DNA of 20,791 nt, taken from the IMG/VR virus record IMGVR_UViG_3300046004_002406, positions 1 to 20,791 of that record; one strand, given 5' to 3'. The notes beneath the pieces were generated by a model. It ran no database searches, had not been told where the DNA came from, and saw only the letters and a list, made by a program, of their open reading frames with translations. Position 1 is the stretch's first letter; every line of letters begins with the position of its first letter. This document shows positions 2,104-18,465 of this stretch, one piece after another. Both the position numbers and the translations under genes were made by a program. This DNA comes from a virus.

Positions 2104-3420
2104 ATGTATCTATCAGAAGTTCACGCAAAAAAGTGGGCTCCAGTTCTTGATCACCCAGAACTCCCAAAAATCAAAGATCCATATCGCCGTGCCGTCACAG
2201 CGATTGTTCTAGAGAATCAAGAAAAAGCCCTATACGAAAATAACCGTCTATGGGAAACTTCCCCAGCCAACTCAGTTGGCGGTGGTATGTCCCCTGTTGT
2301 TGGCGGCGAAGGTAACATCAAAGGGTTCGACCCAATCCTAATCGGATTGGTCCGTCGCGCTCTTCCAAACCTAATGGCTTATGACATCTGCGGCGTTCAG
2401 CCAATGACAGGCCCAACTGGTTTGATCTTCGCAATGCGTTCGAAGTATGCAAATACTGCAAACAGCGGCCTAACTGCAGACGAAGCTCTGTATAGCGAAG
2501 CGGATACGGATTTCTCGGGCACCGGGTCACATGCAAACGACTACAATTTCGGTAATGCGGCATTCGTGCTTGCAAACACTGGTAGCGCAGTCGCCACATC
2601 AACTGGTGAAGACTTTGGTGGCGGCACAACGCTGCAATCAATGGGCTTCTCAATTGAGCGTGTATCGGTTACAGCCAAGACCCGTGCCTTGAAGGCGGAA
2701 TACTCACTCGAATTAGCACAGGACTTGAAGGCAATTCATGGTCTTGACGCTGAAACCGAGTTGACCAATATTCTGTCAACTGAAATTCTAGCTGAAATCA
2801 ACCGTGAAGTTGTTCGTACTGTGTACGCAACAGCCAACGTTGGTATCACTGGAACTTCTCGTCCGACTTTCAACCTAAACAGCTCATCAGACACCTCAGG
2901 TCGTTGGGCGGTTGAGAAGTTCAAGGGTCTATTGTTCGCAATTGAGCAAGCTAGCAATAAAATTGCTAAGGACACTCGTCGCGGCAAGGGCAACATGTTG
3001 GTTCTTTCAACCGACGTTGCTTCGGCCCTAGCAATGACTGGTCTTCTAGACTATAACTCAGCATTGAGCAACAATACGAACCTAGCTGTGGACGATACAG
3101 GTAATACCTTCGCTGGTATGCTGTTCGGCCGCATTAAGGTTTTTGTTGATCCGTACTCGGTTGCCGGTCGTGACTATGTTGTGGTTGGATATAAGGGTAC
3201 TACCCCATATGACGCAGGTCTATTCTACTGCCCATATGTTCCTCTACAAATGGTCCGCGCTATCAACCCAGACACCTTCCAGCCAAAGGTAGGCTTCAAG
3301 ACCCGATATGGTCTAGTTGCTAACCCATTCGCTCAGGGTGGTACTGTCGGTTCGGGTGCAATTACCAATGGTACAAACCAGTACTATCGTAAGTTCGTTG
3401 TCGAAAATCTCGTTGGATAA
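2104..3420 (+). CDS. 23: Major capsid protein precursor (T4 gp23-like)
   Basis: Forms the hexameric capsomers of the head (HK97 fold). Strong family strings are RRALPNLMAYDICGVQPMTGPTG, LKAEYSLELAQDLKAIHGLD, EILAEINREVV, VGYKG...DAGLFYCPYVPL and FQPKVGFKTRYGLVANPFA. All have direct T4 gp23 counterparts. The length of 438 compares with 521 in T4. The missing length falls mostly in the N-terminal propeptide and in the middle between about residues 110 and 180, where T4 has an insertion domain. The propeptide probably ends at Glu51 (NNRLWE/TSPANS). GGAGA at 2093-2097 is the ribosome binding site. Codons are richer in C and G at third positions than in neighbouring genes, as expected for the most highly expressed protein. 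A strong terminator follows. Confidence 0.97.
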   Translation: MYLSEVHAKKWAPVLDHPELPKIKDPYRRAVTAIVLENQEKALYENNRLWETSPANSVGGGMSPVVGGEGNIKGFDPILIGLVRRALPNLMAYDICGVQPMTGPTGLIFAMRSKYANTANSGLTADEALYSEADTDFSGTGSHANDYNFGNAAFVLANTGSAVATSTGEDFGGGTTLQSMGFSIERVSVTAKTRALKAEYSLELAQDLKAIHGLDAETELTNILSTEILAEINREVVRTVYATANVGITGTSRPTFNLNSSSDTSGRWAVEKFKGLLFAIEQASNKIAKDTRRGKGNMLVLSTDVASALAMTGLLDYNSALSNNTNLAVDDTGNTFAGMLFGRIKVFVDPYSVAGRDYVVVGYKGTTPYDAGLFYCPYVPLQMVRAINPDTFQPKVGFKTRYGLVANPFAQGGTVGSGAITNGTNQYYRKFVVENLVG

Positions 3421-3520: not shown

Positions 3521-4942
3521 ATGGAAAACGAACAAACTATACAAGAATTAAAAGCTATTAGAAGCAATCCTAGAAAAATGCAGTCGAAATTTTTAGAGCC
3601 ATATATCCAATTTTTAAACGAAAACTCACCGATATCTTGGAAATTAAAAGAAAGGATAGATTACGTTTTGCAAGAAACAAAAGTAACTTGTTATTGCGGC
3701 AATCCAGCTAAACCTAATTCTAATTGGTGCGGTATTGTTTGCAGAAATAAAGATACTAATCTACGAAATAACATTTCAAACAAAAATAAATCCAATAAAA
3801 CACAGAGAACTTCTAATTTAAAGAAAACTCTTCTTTCCAAATATGGTGTCGATTCAATACAAAAAATACCGTCAGTTAGTGCGAAAACTAAAACTTCTAA
3901 GTTAAAGTATTATGATGATGTTATTGATTCTACTTTTGCAGCATATGGGCTAAGTAAAGCGAAACTATCGGATCAAGAATATTTAAAAACTATTTGTGCT
4001 AATAGTTCATATTCCGAACTTAGTGAAAAACATTTCAACGGTATGCCAGAAATGACCATATACAGGTTCTTCAAAAGGATTTCGTTTGATCCTAATTTCC
4101 AGAAAACTTCCTCTATTGCAGAGCGAGAAATAGCAGACTTTATTCAAAATGATTTGGGCTTTGGCGTTATTAGAAATGATAGAACGTTAATAGCCCCTAA
4201 AGAATTAGATATTTTGGTTCCAGAAAAAAATCTGGCTGTAGAATATCATGGATTATATTGGCACGCCGAAAAAGACCACACAATTAAACTTAAAATGTGC
4301 TCAGATAAAAATATCAGTTTAATTCAAATTTTTGAAGATGAGTGGGCCTTTAAAAAACAAATAATTAAATCAATTCTGACCAACAAATTGGGTTGTACAC
4401 CTAGAAAAATTTCGGCTAGAAAAACAAAATTTTCAAAAATAGAAAATGCAGAAGCTAGAGAGTTTTTAGATAAAAACCATTTACAGGGAAAAATTAATGG
4501 CGCGCATTATGGCCTCTCATTAAATGGTGAACTAGTAAGTTTAGTGACCATAGGAAAGTCCCGATTCAGTAAAGGTATCGAGCTTCTTAGATATGCTAAT
4601 GCACTAGACACTTCAGTCACCGGTGGTTTTTCTAAACTACTAAAAAATGTGAAGTTGCAGTTAAATGTTAACGAAATAATAACATATGCAGATCTCAGAT
4701 TTTCTACTGGAAAAACGTATGAATCTTTCGGTAAATACTCGCACACAACTACCCCAGGGTATTTTTGGGTAGATAAAAAAAATATTAGTACTAGAATCAA
4801 CCGATTCGCCACACAGAAACATAAACTTGGGGCGTTGCTCGGTACTAAATATGATAGTAGTTTAACCGAAGATCAGAATATGATTAATTCTGGTTATATT
4901 AAGTTATTTGATGCAGGTCACGCGGTCTACCTATTACAATAA
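3521..4942 (+). CDS. Free-standing homing endonuclease, VSR/EDxHD-like nuclease
   Basis: 473 residues, predicted to make a site-specific double-strand break that drives copying of its own gene into phages lacking it. An N-terminal zinc-ribbon-like set, CxC (57,59) and CxxxC (70,74), is followed by a basic linker with the KYGVDSIQ motif (107-114) common in phage homing endonucleases. The nuclease core spans about 198-275: AEREIADFI (Glu201/203), PKELDILVPEKNLAVEYHGLYWHAE (split here: Asp230, Glu241, His243, His248) and LIQIFEDEW. This resembles the very-short-patch-repair nuclease fold of the EDxHD homing endonucleases. The region 300-473 (ADLRFSTGKTYESFG, TPGYFWV) is a C-terminal domain often attached to such phage enzymes. 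It lies alone between the gp23 terminator and a tail gene, and is more AT-rich than gp23. The assignment to a nuclease is firm; the homing role is inferred. Confidence 0.8.
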   Translation: MENEQTIQELKAIRSNPRKMQSKFLEPYIQFLNENSPISWKLKERIDYVLQETKVTCYCGNPAKPNSNWCGIVCRNKDTNLRNNISNKNKSNKTQRTSNLKKTLLSKYGVDSIQKIPSVSAKTKTSKLKYYDDVIDSTFAAYGLSKAKLSDQEYLKTICANSSYSELSEKHFNGMPEMTIYRFFKRISFDPNFQKTSSIAEREIADFIQNDLGFGVIRNDRTLIAPKELDILVPEKNLAVEYHGLYWHAEKDHTIKLKMCSDKNISLIQIFEDEWAFKKQIIKSILTNKLGCTPRKISARKTKFSKIENAEAREFLDKNHLQGKINGAHYGLSLNGELVSLVTIGKSRFSKGIELLRYANALDTSVTGGFSKLLKNVKLQLNVNEIITYADLRFSTGKTYESFGKYSHTTTPGYFWVDKKNISTRINRFATQKHKLGALLGTKYDSSLTEDQNMINSGYIKLFDAGHAVYLLQ

Positions 4943-11956: not shown

Positions 11957-11993
11957 GTCATTGATTTGACTAGAGTTTTATCCATTTACTTTT
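11954..11993 (+). repeat. Stem-loop/promoter cassette, copy A
   Basis: Forty bases starting at the deformylase stop codon align without gaps with 14318-14357 at 32 of 40 positions, including an identical first 14 bases (TAAGTCATTGATTT). It contains a short stem AGTCA/TGACT (11956-11960 with 11966-11970) followed by GTTTTA, then the -35 region of the next promoter. The distance from TAA to the -35 box is 31 bases in both copies. Confidence 0.75.
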
Positions 11994-14405: not shown

Positions 14406-15602
14406 ATGCCTAAAACGAACTATTCTACCGAAACTGAACGTTCAGAAGTTTTGCGTCAGATGAGAAATAAGTTTGACTGTGATGTGATTAGCGGTAAAGA
14501 GCTAAATTCTTATGTTGAAAATGCGGGAATTCCTTTCCCATATTTTATTGTGCGCGAACGAAAAGTTTCGCGAGGAAGATTCAGTATTGTTGACAACTTC
14601 AATACTATCACGGAATTGCGCGACGGTTCCCAGGAAAATGGTTCAGATGGTACTTCTGATTCAATTTCTCAAGCCGCTATGCAAAAAAATGTTGTGCCGA
14701 TCAACTCTAAGAAGTTGAATATTAGCGTCGATTCTTTTGTTCCAGAAAAAAACTCAACATATGTTCCTTTCGGATTTTTCTCTGATCTGAAGGAAATAGT
14801 TAAATCAAAGATTTTCTACCCGATCTATATTACTGGTCTTTCTGGTAATGGCAAGACTATGATGGTAGAGCAGGTTTGCGCAAGTTTAAATCGCGAACTA
14901 ATTCGTGTCAACGTAACTAAGCGAACTGACGAAACTGATTTGATTGGCTCATATGAGTTGATCGACGGCAACACAGTTCGGCGCGAAGGCCCAGTCATTA
15001 TTGCTATGCGACGTGGGGCTGTATTGCTTCTAGATGAAGTCGATCTGGGAACTGAAGATCTCCTTTGCCTCCAGCCAATTTTGGAAGGAAAGTCCTTCTA
15101 CGATAAGAAGACTGGAGAAATTGTACACCCAGCTCCAGGGTTTAATGTTTTTGCTACTGCAAATACAAAGGGTAAGGGTAGCGATGATGGCCGATTTATC
15201 GGAACTAATTTTCTAAACGAAGCATTTTTGGAGCGGTTTGCCATAACTGTTGAGCAGCAGTACCCTCCAGCAGCAACTGAACGCAAGATCCTCGAAAAGA
15301 ACTTCGCCGAGCATGGTATTTCTGACGATAACTTTATCGAACGACTTATCACTTGGGCAGATGTTATTCGTAAGGCTTTTGAAGATAATTCTTGCGACGA
15401 AGTTATTTCTACTCGCCGTTTGATTCACATTGTTAAAGCTTACGCGATCTTCAAGGATCGACTGAAGGCGATTGAGCTTTGTTTGGCTCGATTCGATTCC
15501 GATACAAAGAACGCTTTCTTGGATTTTTATACTAAGATCGATTCGCAGGCTGTTGTGCCAGAAGTTCAAAACACAACACAGGAGAATGTCACGAATGTCT
15601 GA
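14406..15602 (+). CDS. CobS/MoxR-like AAA+ ATPase
   Basis: 398 residues from the ATG at 14406 (MPKTNYSTETE). This start is preferred over the ATG at 14394 because GGAGT (14396-14400) lies five bases before it and inside the longer version. The AAA+ module has Walker A GLSGNGKT (144-151), a DETDLIGSYEL segment typical of the MoxR/CobS branch, Walker B LLLDEVD (207-213), sensor 1 FATANT (249-254) and an arginine-finger LERF (Arg277). The N-terminal 100 residues are a CobS-like recruiting region. T4-like cyanophages carry CobS homologues annotated as porphyrin or cobalamin proteins. Here it follows a CobT-like VWA protein, making a complete ATPase/VWA pair. The substrate is unknown. The following small gene overlaps its end by eight bases. 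Confidence 0.88.
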   Translation: MPKTNYSTETERSEVLRQMRNKFDCDVISGKELNSYVENAGIPFPYFIVRERKVSRGRFSIVDNFNTITELRDGSQENGSDGTSDSISQAAMQKNVVPINSKKLNISVDSFVPEKNSTYVPFGFFSDLKEIVKSKIFYPIYITGLSGNGKTMMVEQVCASLNRELIRVNVTKRTDETDLIGSYELIDGNTVRREGPVIIAMRRGAVLLLDEVDLGTEDLLCLQPILEGKSFYDKKTGEIVHPAPGFNVFATANTKGKGSDDGRFIGTNFLNEAFLERFAITVEQQYPPAATERKILEKNFAEHGISDDNFIERLITWADVIRKAFEDNSCDEVISTRRLIHIVKAYAIFKDRLKAIELCLARFDSDTKNAFLDFYTKIDSQAVVPEVQNTTQENVTNV

Positions 15603-15780
15603 TTTTTACTTGCAGGATGAGGTCAATTTGTTCTTGGATCGTATTAGGGAGTCCGGCGCAATTAACATGTTCGGAGCCGCGCCATATGTACAAGAAGCTT
15701 TCGGCATTTCCAAGAAAGAAGCGAAAGAGCTATTGTTGAATTGGATGGATACTTTTGACCAGCGCCACCCGCTAAAATAA
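15595..15780 (+). CDS. Small hypothetical protein coupled to the CobS-like ATPase
   Basis: 61 residues, MSDFYLQDEVNLFLDRIRESG through HPLK. I chose the ATG at 15595 because AGGAGA (15580-15585) is nine bases upstream. An in-frame ATG at 15586 is too close to that site, and the longer open frame back to 15472 lies over the ATPase gene. All-helical, with GISKKEAKELLLNWMDTFD, similar in style to small helix-turn-helix or adaptor proteins. Family not recognised. The eight-base overlap with the ATPase gene suggests coupled translation and a shared complex or message. Confidence 0.7.
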   Translation: MSDFYLQDEVNLFLDRIRESGAINMFGAAPYVQEAFGISKKEAKELLLNWMDTFDQRHPLK

Positions 15781-15783
15781 AAC

Positions 15784-15812
15784 TTTACTTTTGACTTTAG
15801 AAGTAGTATAAT
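15784..15812 (+). promoter_or_regulatory. Sigma70-type early promoter for the winged-helix gene
   Basis: -35 TTTACT (15784-15789) followed by TTTT, 17-base spacer, -10 TATAAT (15807-15812). The start near 15819 gives a leader of about 64 bases, three times longer than at the other promoters in this window. Confidence 0.82.
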
Positions 15813-15822
15813 AATGACTAGA

Positions 15823-15861
15823 CCAAACAATAACCCCCAATTGTTTGGGTTTTTGATGGGG
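15823..15861 (+). promoter_or_regulatory. Predicted H-type pseudoknot in a 5' leader
   Basis: Stem 1 is a perfect 9-bp inverted repeat CCAAACAAT/ATTGTTTGG (15823-15831 with 15840-15848). Its 8-base loop contains CCCCA (15835-15839), which can pair with TGGGG (15857-15861) as stem 2. Loop lengths are 3, 0 and 8 bases, in the range of real H-type pseudoknots. It would begin about four bases from the predicted 5' end and end 21 bases before the start codon. An alternative reading is an attenuator hairpin, since GTTTTTG follows stem 1. Confidence 0.55.
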
Positions 15862-15882
15862 ATATTTAATGAGGTATAATAT

Positions 15883-16176
15883 ATGAGTGCTATTAATTCT
15901 ATGCTGAACTATCTGTCTGGTGGTAATGTCGTCACAACTAAGCAGGCCCGAACCCTGTTTAAGGTTGATAATGTTGCCGATTTGGTTTATCGTTTGCGTA
16001 ATGAGGGTGTTTCGATTTACACGAATCGCGTCACCACTTCTCGCGGCGAAAAGACCTTTGCGTATCGTCTGGGCAATCCTAGCCGAGCTTTCGTTAGCTA
16101 TTTTGACAACCGTCATGTGGCGCGTGCAAGAAAGACTCTTTATCGCAACGCAATCACCGTTAAGATGGCGGCATAA
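15883..16176 (+). CDS. Small predicted winged-helix DNA-binding protein
   Basis: 97 residues, basic. The pattern MLNYLSGGNVVTTKQARTLF, VDNVADLVYRLRNEGVSIYTNRV and GEKTFAYRLGNPSR (read as three pieces) fits a compact helix-turn-helix followed by a beta wing, a type of small phage protein often annotated as a helix-turn-helix domain. The C-terminal extension HVARARKTLYRNA is strongly basic. GAGG (15871-15874) is eight bases before the ATG. It has its own early promoter, an unusually long structured leader and a strong terminator, so it is a one-gene unit. It could be a regulator or a DNA-coating protein. Function beyond DNA binding is not visible. Confidence 0.7.
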   Translation: MSAINSMLNYLSGGNVVTTKQARTLFKVDNVADLVYRLRNEGVSIYTNRVTTSRGEKTFAYRLGNPSRAFVSYFDNRHVARARKTLYRNAITVKMAA

Positions 16177-16200: not shown

Positions 16201-16231
16201 TGTGGGGGCTTTCGCCCCCGCAGTTTTATTT
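16201..16231 (+). terminator. Rho-independent terminator after the winged-helix gene
   Basis: A 9-bp stem TGTGGGGGC/GCCCCCGCA (one G-T pair) with a TTTC loop at 16201-16222, followed by GTTTTATTT. An AT-rich hairpin (AAAAACA/TGTTTTT, 16175-16195) precedes it. It insulates the next operon, whose -35 box lies 12 bases downstream. Confidence 0.9.
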
Positions 16232-16290: not shown

Positions 16291-17649
16291 ATGGCAAAGG
16301 TTATTGTAGCTCGCGAAAAGATTGATTGTTCTTATTTGCTAGGTCAATTTCTAGACGAATCGCATTATGATCTTCTAATTGAGGAAGATACTGATTGCTA
16401 TCAAAAAGCTGATTGCGATCCAGTAACTAAGGCTGATTGTTCTACTGCAAATTGCGCTGACTGCACCGAAATCAATACAAAAGACGAGAAAAAAATTGCG
16501 TTCAAGTTTCGCAAAAACTTCTTCACTAAAGAAGAACAAGAACAGGCTTACGTTGGACTAAAAGAAGCAGCAACCCAATCTCAAAATAGAGGTTTAGCTG
16601 CTGGGCCTAAAGGGTCTACTTGTTTGGGTCGAGAATGGGTCAACGAGTTCCAGTTACATGTACTGGATTTTTTTAAGAAACAAGAAGAAAATAGTGTAAT
16701 TGAAGTTGACGTAAATAAAGAAGTAGATATCTTGAGGGAAAAGTATTCAAACACTCAAGGCACTCGCGGATTAGTTTGGCTGTCCGCAAAAATAAAAGAA
16801 GATAATTTTAATTTTGAAGTTTGGTTAAAAGAAGCAATTAGCCTCTCAGTTAAAGAAAGAAAGCGCGAAGCTGGCGAAGTATTTGAAACGTATATTTCAG
16901 ATACAACTTATGCTAACCCCGTGTATTCTGGAATTGCTGGATGGTTTGATAGGTATCCAAGAATACCTTACGGAAGAGCAACATCATACACTCAGCATTC
17001 TTACGCTAAATTTAAGTTGTCGTTTCCGTTTCTACAATCACTAGACAGAGGATTTAGAACTTTGTTGCCATGGCGTTGGCAAAATCAAAAAAACGCTATA
17101 GATAAAATTGACCCTACGTTTGTAGTTCCGGGAACTGTGTTTACTACAATAACAGTAAACAAAACATTTAGAACTGCTGCACATTATGATGCTGGAGATT
17201 TTGCTGACGGATTATCTAATCTACTAGTTCTTTCAAATAATGGAAATTATTCTGGGGGGTATCTAGTTTTTCCGGAATATAGAATTGCCGTTAATGTTAG
17301 GCCGGGCGATTTGCTTCTGGTCAATAACCATGAAATTATGCACGGTAACACACCAATAGTTGTTCATGATGATGTTGCGGAAAGAATTAGTTTGGTTTGC
17401 TATTTGCGCGAAAAAATGCTAGAATTGGGAACTAAAGAATATGAAGATTTCCGATATCAGTTCGTTGAGTCTAGGCGCAAAAATCCAGACCATCCTATGC
17501 AGAGAAGATTGTGGAATGGAATTTCAGAAGGAATGTGGGAATCTCAAGAGTGGTATGACTTCTTGGAAAAGAATGGCGGCAAAAAAATGGTTGATGATTA
17601 TCACCCTAAAGCGTTCCAGCAAATTTCTACTTTAGAAGGATTATTTTAA
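16291..17649 (+). CDS. TET/JBP-type 2-oxoglutarate/Fe(II) dioxygenase, probable DNA base hydroxylase
   Basis: 452 residues. The double-stranded beta-helix core has iron ligands HYD (His298, Asp300) and MHGN (His351), with Arg365 as likely 2-oxoglutarate contact (AERISLVCYLRE). Between them are DGLSNLLVLSN, YSGGYLVFPEYRIAVNV and RPGDLLLVNNHEIMHGN, which read as the TET/JBP family of nucleic-acid 5-methylpyrimidine oxygenases rather than prolyl hydroxylases. Such enzymes convert 5-methylcytosine or thymine in DNA to the 5-hydroxymethyl base. The two following glycosyltransferase genes fit a pathway in which that hydroxyl receives sugar. The N-terminal region has a cysteine cluster (Cys36, 42, 50, 55, 58) that may bind metal. 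No DNA methyltransferase is in the window, so the substrate base is open. Confidence 0.82.
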   Translation: MAKVIVAREKIDCSYLLGQFLDESHYDLLIEEDTDCYQKADCDPVTKADCSTANCADCTEINTKDEKKIAFKFRKNFFTKEEQEQAYVGLKEAATQSQNRGLAAGPKGSTCLGREWVNEFQLHVLDFFKKQEENSVIEVDVNKEVDILREKYSNTQGTRGLVWLSAKIKEDNFNFEVWLKEAISLSVKERKREAGEVFETYISDTTYANPVYSGIAGWFDRYPRIPYGRATSYTQHSYAKFKLSFPFLQSLDRGFRTLLPWRWQNQKNAIDKIDPTFVVPGTVFTTITVNKTFRTAAHYDAGDFADGLSNLLVLSNNGNYSGGYLVFPEYRIAVNVRPGDLLLVNNHEIMHGNTPIVVHDDVAERISLVCYLREKMLELGTKEYEDFRYQFVESRRKNPDHPMQRRLWNGISEGMWESQEWYDFLEKNGGKKMVDDYHPKAFQQISTLEGLF

Positions 17650-17658
17650 GAGGTATTT

Positions 17659-18465
17659 ATGAGCTATGATTATGTAATTGCAGTTCCTAGTTACAAGAGA
17701 TCGAAGACGGTTAAAGAAAAAACTCTGTCTACGCTGACTAGGCTAAAAGTTAATCCTGAAAAGGTCACCATTTTTGTTGGTGATTCTGATCAAGAAGTTG
17801 AATATCGAAACGTATTATCTGATACACCATACAAAAATATTGTAGTCGGTGTTCCTGGCATGGGCAATATTCGCAACTATATTCAAAATTATTATAGCCC
17901 CGGAACTTATATTTTAAATCTTGACGATGATCTAATTGACATCCAGTATCGAAAAAATGAAAAGGTGTTGGAGCCAATTACCAATATAGATGAATTAGTC
18001 AATGCTGGGTTTGATGCTTGCATTAAAAACAATGCTCATCTTTGGGGCGTTTATGCTGCTTCTAATCCATTCTTTATGCACGACCGAATTGCCGTTGGCC
18101 TGTACTACATAATCGGTAGCATGTGGGGTTGCATAAATAGGCATGGAGAAGAATATTCTGTGACTCTGGACGATAAAGAAGACTTCGAGAGGTCAATTAA
18201 GTACTATATATCTGATGGTGCTGTTTGTCGATTAGATTACATTACAGTTAAGTCTAATTATTACAAAGAACCAGGAGGTATGCAAGTAACCAGAACCACT
18301 CAGAGAATTGAAGAATCCGCAAAAATTCTAGCTGAGAGGTATCCTGACTATTGTACTATGTACACTAGAAAAACTACTGGACACGCTGAATTGAAGTTGA
18401 AAGATAAAACTGGGAAAACTAAAGGTTCAGAACCGAGCAATTCCCTTGAAAGTTTGTTTGATTAA
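17659..18465 (+). CDS. TET-associated-type glycosyltransferase (GT-A fold)
   Basis: 268 residues. The N-terminus VIAVPSYKRSKTVKEKTLSTL is a nucleotide-sugar-binding strand-helix start. GMGNIRNYI and the metal-binding LNLDDD (87-91) give a GT-A type DxD site, and DDKEDFERS (171-179) is a probable catalytic acidic segment. The phrase GGMQVTRTTQRIEESAKILAERYPDYC near 206-232 and RKTTGHAELKLK near 237-248 resemble the family described beside phage TET/JBP oxygenases (TAGT). It would transfer a sugar from a nucleotide sugar to 5-hydroxymethyl bases in DNA. Starts nine bases after the dioxygenase stop with GAGGT as ribosome site. The family name rests on motif memory and context. Confidence 0.77.
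   Translation: MSYDYVIAVPSYKRSKTVKEKTLSTLTRLKVNPEKVTIFVGDSDQEVEYRNVLSDTPYKNIVVGVPGMGNIRNYIQNYYSPGTYILNLDDDLIDIQYRKNEKVLEPITNIDELVNAGFDACIKNNAHLWGVYAASNPFFMHDRIAVGLYYIIGSMWGCINRHGEEYSVTLDDKEDFERSIKYYISDGAVCRLDYITVKSNYYKEPGGMQVTRTTQRIEESAKILAERYPDYCTMYTRKTTGHAELKLKDKTGKTKGSEPSNSLESLFD

Follow-up and report, generated by a model that had tools for sequence, protein, structure and literature searches.

The window, the complete 20,791-nt stretch analyzed here, belongs to a T4-like phage and is a contig in IMG/VR. Cyanophage homologues share 63% identity with the window's head protease, and the contig also carries genes for SbcCD-like, CobT/CobS-like, and gp45-clamp-like products, a TET/JBP oxygenase, and a TAGT glycosyltransferase. 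An HNH/homing endonuclease-like gene (3521–4942) has head genes on one side and a helicase on the other. The TET/JBP oxygenase adjoins a TET-associated glycosyltransferase (16291–18465), and the pair suggests hypermodified phage DNA derived from 5-methylcytosine. A forward-strand gene at 15883–16176 encodes a 97-aa winged-helix (wHTH) protein assigned to HTH_39 (Pfam PF14090, E 8.8e-7; phrog_4973, unknown function). Wherever the contig extends far enough, the gene order cobT-cobS-wHTH-TET is constant among relatives. A 61-aa ORF with weak likeness to DUF5049 (15595–15780) overlaps the end of the CobS-like gene; many relatives retain it ahead of the wHTH gene.

The AlphaFold model of the wHTH protein comprises the wHTH domain plus two C-terminal helices (pLDDT 76), and structure comparison points, weakly (best E 7e-3), to DNA-associated transcription factors. 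Identity averages 83% per column, residues R81, R83, K84, and R88 are invariant, and a basic stretch at the C-terminus is conserved. The gene is preceded by a promoter, TTTACT-17 nt-TATAAT (15784–15812, + strand), whose −35, −10, and spacing are identical in relatives; a reversed-pattern control gave 0 matches. A terminator-like GC-rich hairpin recognized by inspection lies past the gene (16201–16229, + strand) and is present in relatives too. With its own promoter and this hairpin, the wHTH gene is a one-gene unit.

The promoter ends at 15812 and the ATG is at 15883, leaving an mRNA leader of about 64 nt (15819–15882, + strand; start site predicted from the −10). The original prediction had set this long leader against short ones elsewhere, and the contrast is borne out, as the window promoters at 11985, 16243, and 19932 leave about 18, 13, and 25 nt. 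The H-type pseudoknot proposed for the leader can be drawn on the + strand exactly as described. Stem P1 pairs CCAAACAAT (15823–15831) with ATTGTTTGG (15840–15848) at 9/9 positions, and its loop reads AACCCCCA. Stem P2 pairs CCCCA (15835–15839) with TGGGG (15857–15861), giving loops of 3, 0, and 8 nt. Both stems were assessed from the sequence, by pseudoknot scoring, and by covariation. Since a run of five C faces four G, the true register of P2 in the window may differ by one base. L2, 0 nt in the window as drawn, is mostly 2 nt in relatives. L3 is GTTTTTGA in the window (15849–15856) and mostly TATTGAA in relatives, so the U-run is not conserved. P2 ends 21 nt before the ATG, and a Shine-Dalgarno sequence, GAGG, follows at 15871–15874 (+ strand).

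Two other candidate features of the leader were rejected by inspection. A second promoter over the leader (TTGATG-16-TATAAT, 15853–15880) is attributed to chance and degrades in relatives L003, L005, and L011. A leader peptide starting from the ATG that some relatives have inside P1 was discarded, as ATA stands at that place in many others and the reading frame relative to the gene varies.

Within the window, the pseudoknot is mildly unusual. Its leader has an ordinary minimum free energy (z = +0.83), and an H-type pseudoknot of equal or better score arose in 1/200 dinucleotide shuffles of the leader. Among 1886 66-nt windows taken from both strands, about four further sites reach an equal or better score. 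The sequence alone is suggestive at best. With the single-sequence case weak, the evidence for the knot rests on conservation in relatives.

Two IMG/VR scans yielded 81 loci with usable start codons and 44 distinct full-length leaders, 43 of which have the knot with both stems. Both stems are also kept in 12/12 distinct leaders fetched later. In the exception, L035, promoter and pseudoknot are both gone but the wHTH gene remains, its start directly following an upstream small gene (~640–691); the element is therefore not indispensable. The family architecture is a P1 of mostly 11 bp, an L1 of 3 nt, a P2 of 5–6 bp, an L2 of ~2 nt, and an L3 of 7–12 nt. A covariance model, R1, matches window positions 15813–15882 with E 5.7e-11, a value to be read with the presence in the model of L002, whose leader is identical to that of the window.

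In an alignment of the 43 leaders, standard pairs fill 97.4% of pair cells, compared with 37–53% when partners are slid. Two-sided changes are found at 12/16 pairs (63 cells), including 3/5 P2 pairs, and the observed covariation values were reached by 0/500 shuffles. Some divergent rows of this alignment are slightly off register, which should depress rather than inflate the counts. Parsimony on a CDS tree gives ~40 double compensations (34 in P1, 6 in P2), 48 single steps from one standard pair to another, and 12 breaks. P1 is free in sequence, with 23 different strands, and P2 appears as GCCCC/GGGGT, GCCGC/GCGGT, GTCCC/GGGAC, GCCCT/AGGGT, and GCCTC/GAGGT. Homologous leaders that break both stems without compensation, named at the outset as the result that would tell against the knot, were looked for and did not occur; both stems are compensated. 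The leader RNA element is very probably real on this comparative evidence. About 50 related freshwater phages retain this fold although its letters differ among them, so the knot is almost certainly a true control element, probably a switch by which the wHTH protein or another factor lowers expression of the gene.

Strong R1 matches occur once per record in 23/24 records, including those of 197 kb and 173 kb, and all lie at the wHTH gene. The record without one is L035, and additional matches are weak (E 0.03 or more). When the core DNA pattern was run over 2.9 M viral contigs, 42 of 48 matches lay before a wHTH gene, and the remaining 6 are without a downstream P2 strand. The full knot is tied exclusively to the wHTH (HTH_39) gene in the records searched. 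Rfam covariance models gave no match for the leader at the gathering threshold. Relaxing the cutoff to E<=5 still gave nothing for the window leader; for the L068 leader it gave a spurious microRNA match alone. No wHTH relative was found among the named phages of INPHARED or in the bacterial genomes searched, and nothing beside the TET-like gene of phages DLP_6, Cr30, and C48C1 is annotated as wHTH. The suggestion that this may be a new RNA element has thus held up: it is absent from Rfam, tied to the wHTH gene, and adjoins the ribosome binding site. It is a new RNA family without an Rfam entry.

Most relatives carry a further element, P0, which is absent from the window (15784–15830). P0 is a 12–13-bp inverted repeat that starts immediately downstream of the −35, extends past the −10, and directly abuts P1 (e.g., L003 1633–1661 and L026 2909–2937). 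Its arms vary in concert (GACTCTT/AAGAGTC, GCCATTT/AAATGGT, TACACTT/AAGTGTA, and GTCATTT/AAATGAT). Across 21 sequences, 98.8% of cells are paired versus 33–53% when slid, and 6/12 pairs show two-sided change. Non-Watson-Crick cells on the + strand comprise 58 G.T and 2 C.A, 22 of them from one invariant G.T pair. Because G.T is favored over C.A, unlike the expectation for a DNA operator, these counts suggest that P0 acts as a + strand RNA hairpin in transcripts reading through from upstream. Other promoters of these phages are without P0, apart from a few borderline cases. The promoters of T4 gene e and of related lysis genes offer a parallel, lying in DNA that specifies one arm of an inhibitory hairpin (PMC3014915), although P0 leaves the ribosome site uncovered.

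Two further leaders in these phages were noted. In some relatives (L007 ~3379–3403, L042 ~406–427, and L114 ~1986–2012), the TET/JBP gene leader has a hairpin with a Shine-Dalgarno sequence in its loop. The arms vary yet look complementary by eye (GAACAC/GTGTTC and GAAAC/GTTTC), and this hairpin may covary too. L108 (from 1671) and L092 (from 1501) have another gene with a ~65–70-nt leader behind a TTTACT-17-TATAAT promoter. Its protein begins MSLASLKK/MSLSSLK, and we take it to be possibly gp32-like.

Our preferred reading, with a probability of roughly 0.48, is that the knot is a translational operator for the wHTH gene, probably one to which the encoded protein binds. The wHTH mRNA leader would fold into an H-type pseudoknot immediately past its 5′ end and serve as a gene-specific cis-acting regulatory RNA. 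The small basic winged-helix protein is the most probable binder and would read the shape of the knot. The bound knot would then block the 30S subunit at the adjoining U-rich/Shine-Dalgarno segment, so that the protein would limit its own synthesis. Any stabilizer or binder of the knot would be expected to compete with the 30S subunit. The 3′ edge of the knot lies 17–22 nt upstream of the AUG among leaders, at the border of the ribosome site, and this narrow range is consistent with an operator. Stem letters are free while the protein is strongly conserved, which fits shape recognition. With T4 gp32 as precedent, autogenous repression, which the wHTH protein could plausibly exert, is the leading model. 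DNA is the usual ligand of winged-helix proteins, and this, together with the DNA-associated structural matches, counts against an RNA operator. A broader proposal is doubtful: a new phage RNA family in which a shape-read knot is the wHTH self-operator and is mostly joined to P0 over the −10, giving read-through and promoter-started mRNAs different leader folds.

The main rival to a translational operator is 5′-end protection, in which a knot near the mRNA start would shield it, ligand-free, from 5′-end-dependent decay (RNase E/RppH or a 5′ exonuclease). We regard this as distinctly less probable than an operator. As the knot is at the predicted 5′ end, decay protection would explain its position equally well: in all leaders only a few nt separate P1 from the predicted transcription start, and the −10-to-P1 distance is kept. 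The loops tolerate change, and P0 would supply read-through transcripts with a similar leading structure. However, the distance to the AUG is kept too. A plain hairpin would be enough for protection, yet P2 is conserved and compensated. The knot is also present in a single copy per record, though other transcripts would profit as well, and a generic stabilizer across many genes was rejected because R1 gives one strong copy per record.

The knot could instead be a non-autogenous operator for another trans factor (a phage protein, a host protein, or a phage small RNA), or a translation enhancer or standby structure. The structural evidence for this is the same as for the autogenous model, but no second genomic copy hints at a shared regulator, and we consider it improbable. 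A switch in which the P1 3′ strand pairs with the Shine-Dalgarno sequence was tried by inspection; it fits L018 and L013, fails in L005, L011, and L027, and was rejected.

The original prediction had also raised a ligand-sensing RNA, and this option is weakened. A small H-type metabolite riboswitch would account for a compact pseudoknot adjoining the Shine-Dalgarno sequence, and within the main group NAA-G in L1 and UUGA in L3 are recurrent. Across the divergent groups of the window, L005, and L011, however, the loops and P2 letters change; L1, L2, and L3 all differ, almost no unpaired base is invariant, and P2 itself varies (GCCGC/GCGGT, GCCTC/GAGGT, and GTCCC/GGGAC). With few fixed loop bases, no conserved pocket, nothing credible in Rfam at E<=5, and a downstream gene that is not metabolic, a riboswitch is very unlikely. 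Least likely of all is an intrinsic terminator or attenuator made of P1 and the following GTTTTT: a scan scores window 15823–15848 as terminator-like, but the U-tract is found only in the window and relatives carry ATTATTGA after P1, which argues against a terminator, terminator-like sites in the scanned region number 6 versus 5.6 in shuffles, and a terminator-like hairpin is placed after the wHTH gene instead.

As an operator, the wHTH knot is closest to that of gene 32 in T4, T2, and RB69, with which it shares an H-type leader pseudoknot, a nucleic-acid-binding product, and a T4-like phage. T4 gp32 represses its own synthesis by binding the leader pseudoknot (PMC3014915, PMC535899). That knot starts 67 nt upstream and is followed by an unstructured UUAAA/UAAA-rich stretch of >40 nt before the AUG (PMC535899). 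The wHTH knot is only 17–22 nt from the AUG and is without the >40-nt UUAAA-rich segment. It has a P1 of mostly 11 bp and no visible sequence relation to the gene 32 knot, and the gene behind it is a PF14090 HTH_39 member rather than the gp32 single-strand-binding protein. In Escherichia coli, a leader pseudoknot serves autogenous translational control of rpsO (S15), and in T4 the gene 43 mRNA is repressed by the protein it encodes, through an RNA structure lying upstream (PMC3014915). The rpsO operator shares a pseudoknot in the leader with the wHTH mRNA but belongs to a cellular ribosomal protein unrelated to the wHTH protein. The two pseudoknots probably also differ in architecture. The gene 43 operator is a hairpin with a conserved loop, whereas the wHTH element is a kept knot with variable loops. 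Small H-type riboswitches (preQ1, SAM-II, and others) are alike in size and topology; the wHTH knot differ from these by being without an Rfam match, a conserved ligand pocket, or a metabolic gene. The wHTH leader knot adds an RNA family missing from Rfam and would, if the autogenous model is true, provide a case of action on RNA by a winged-helix fold, which normally reads DNA. It offers a second, unrelated leader pseudoknot, whose natural variants are a ready compensated set for testing shape reading by a protein.
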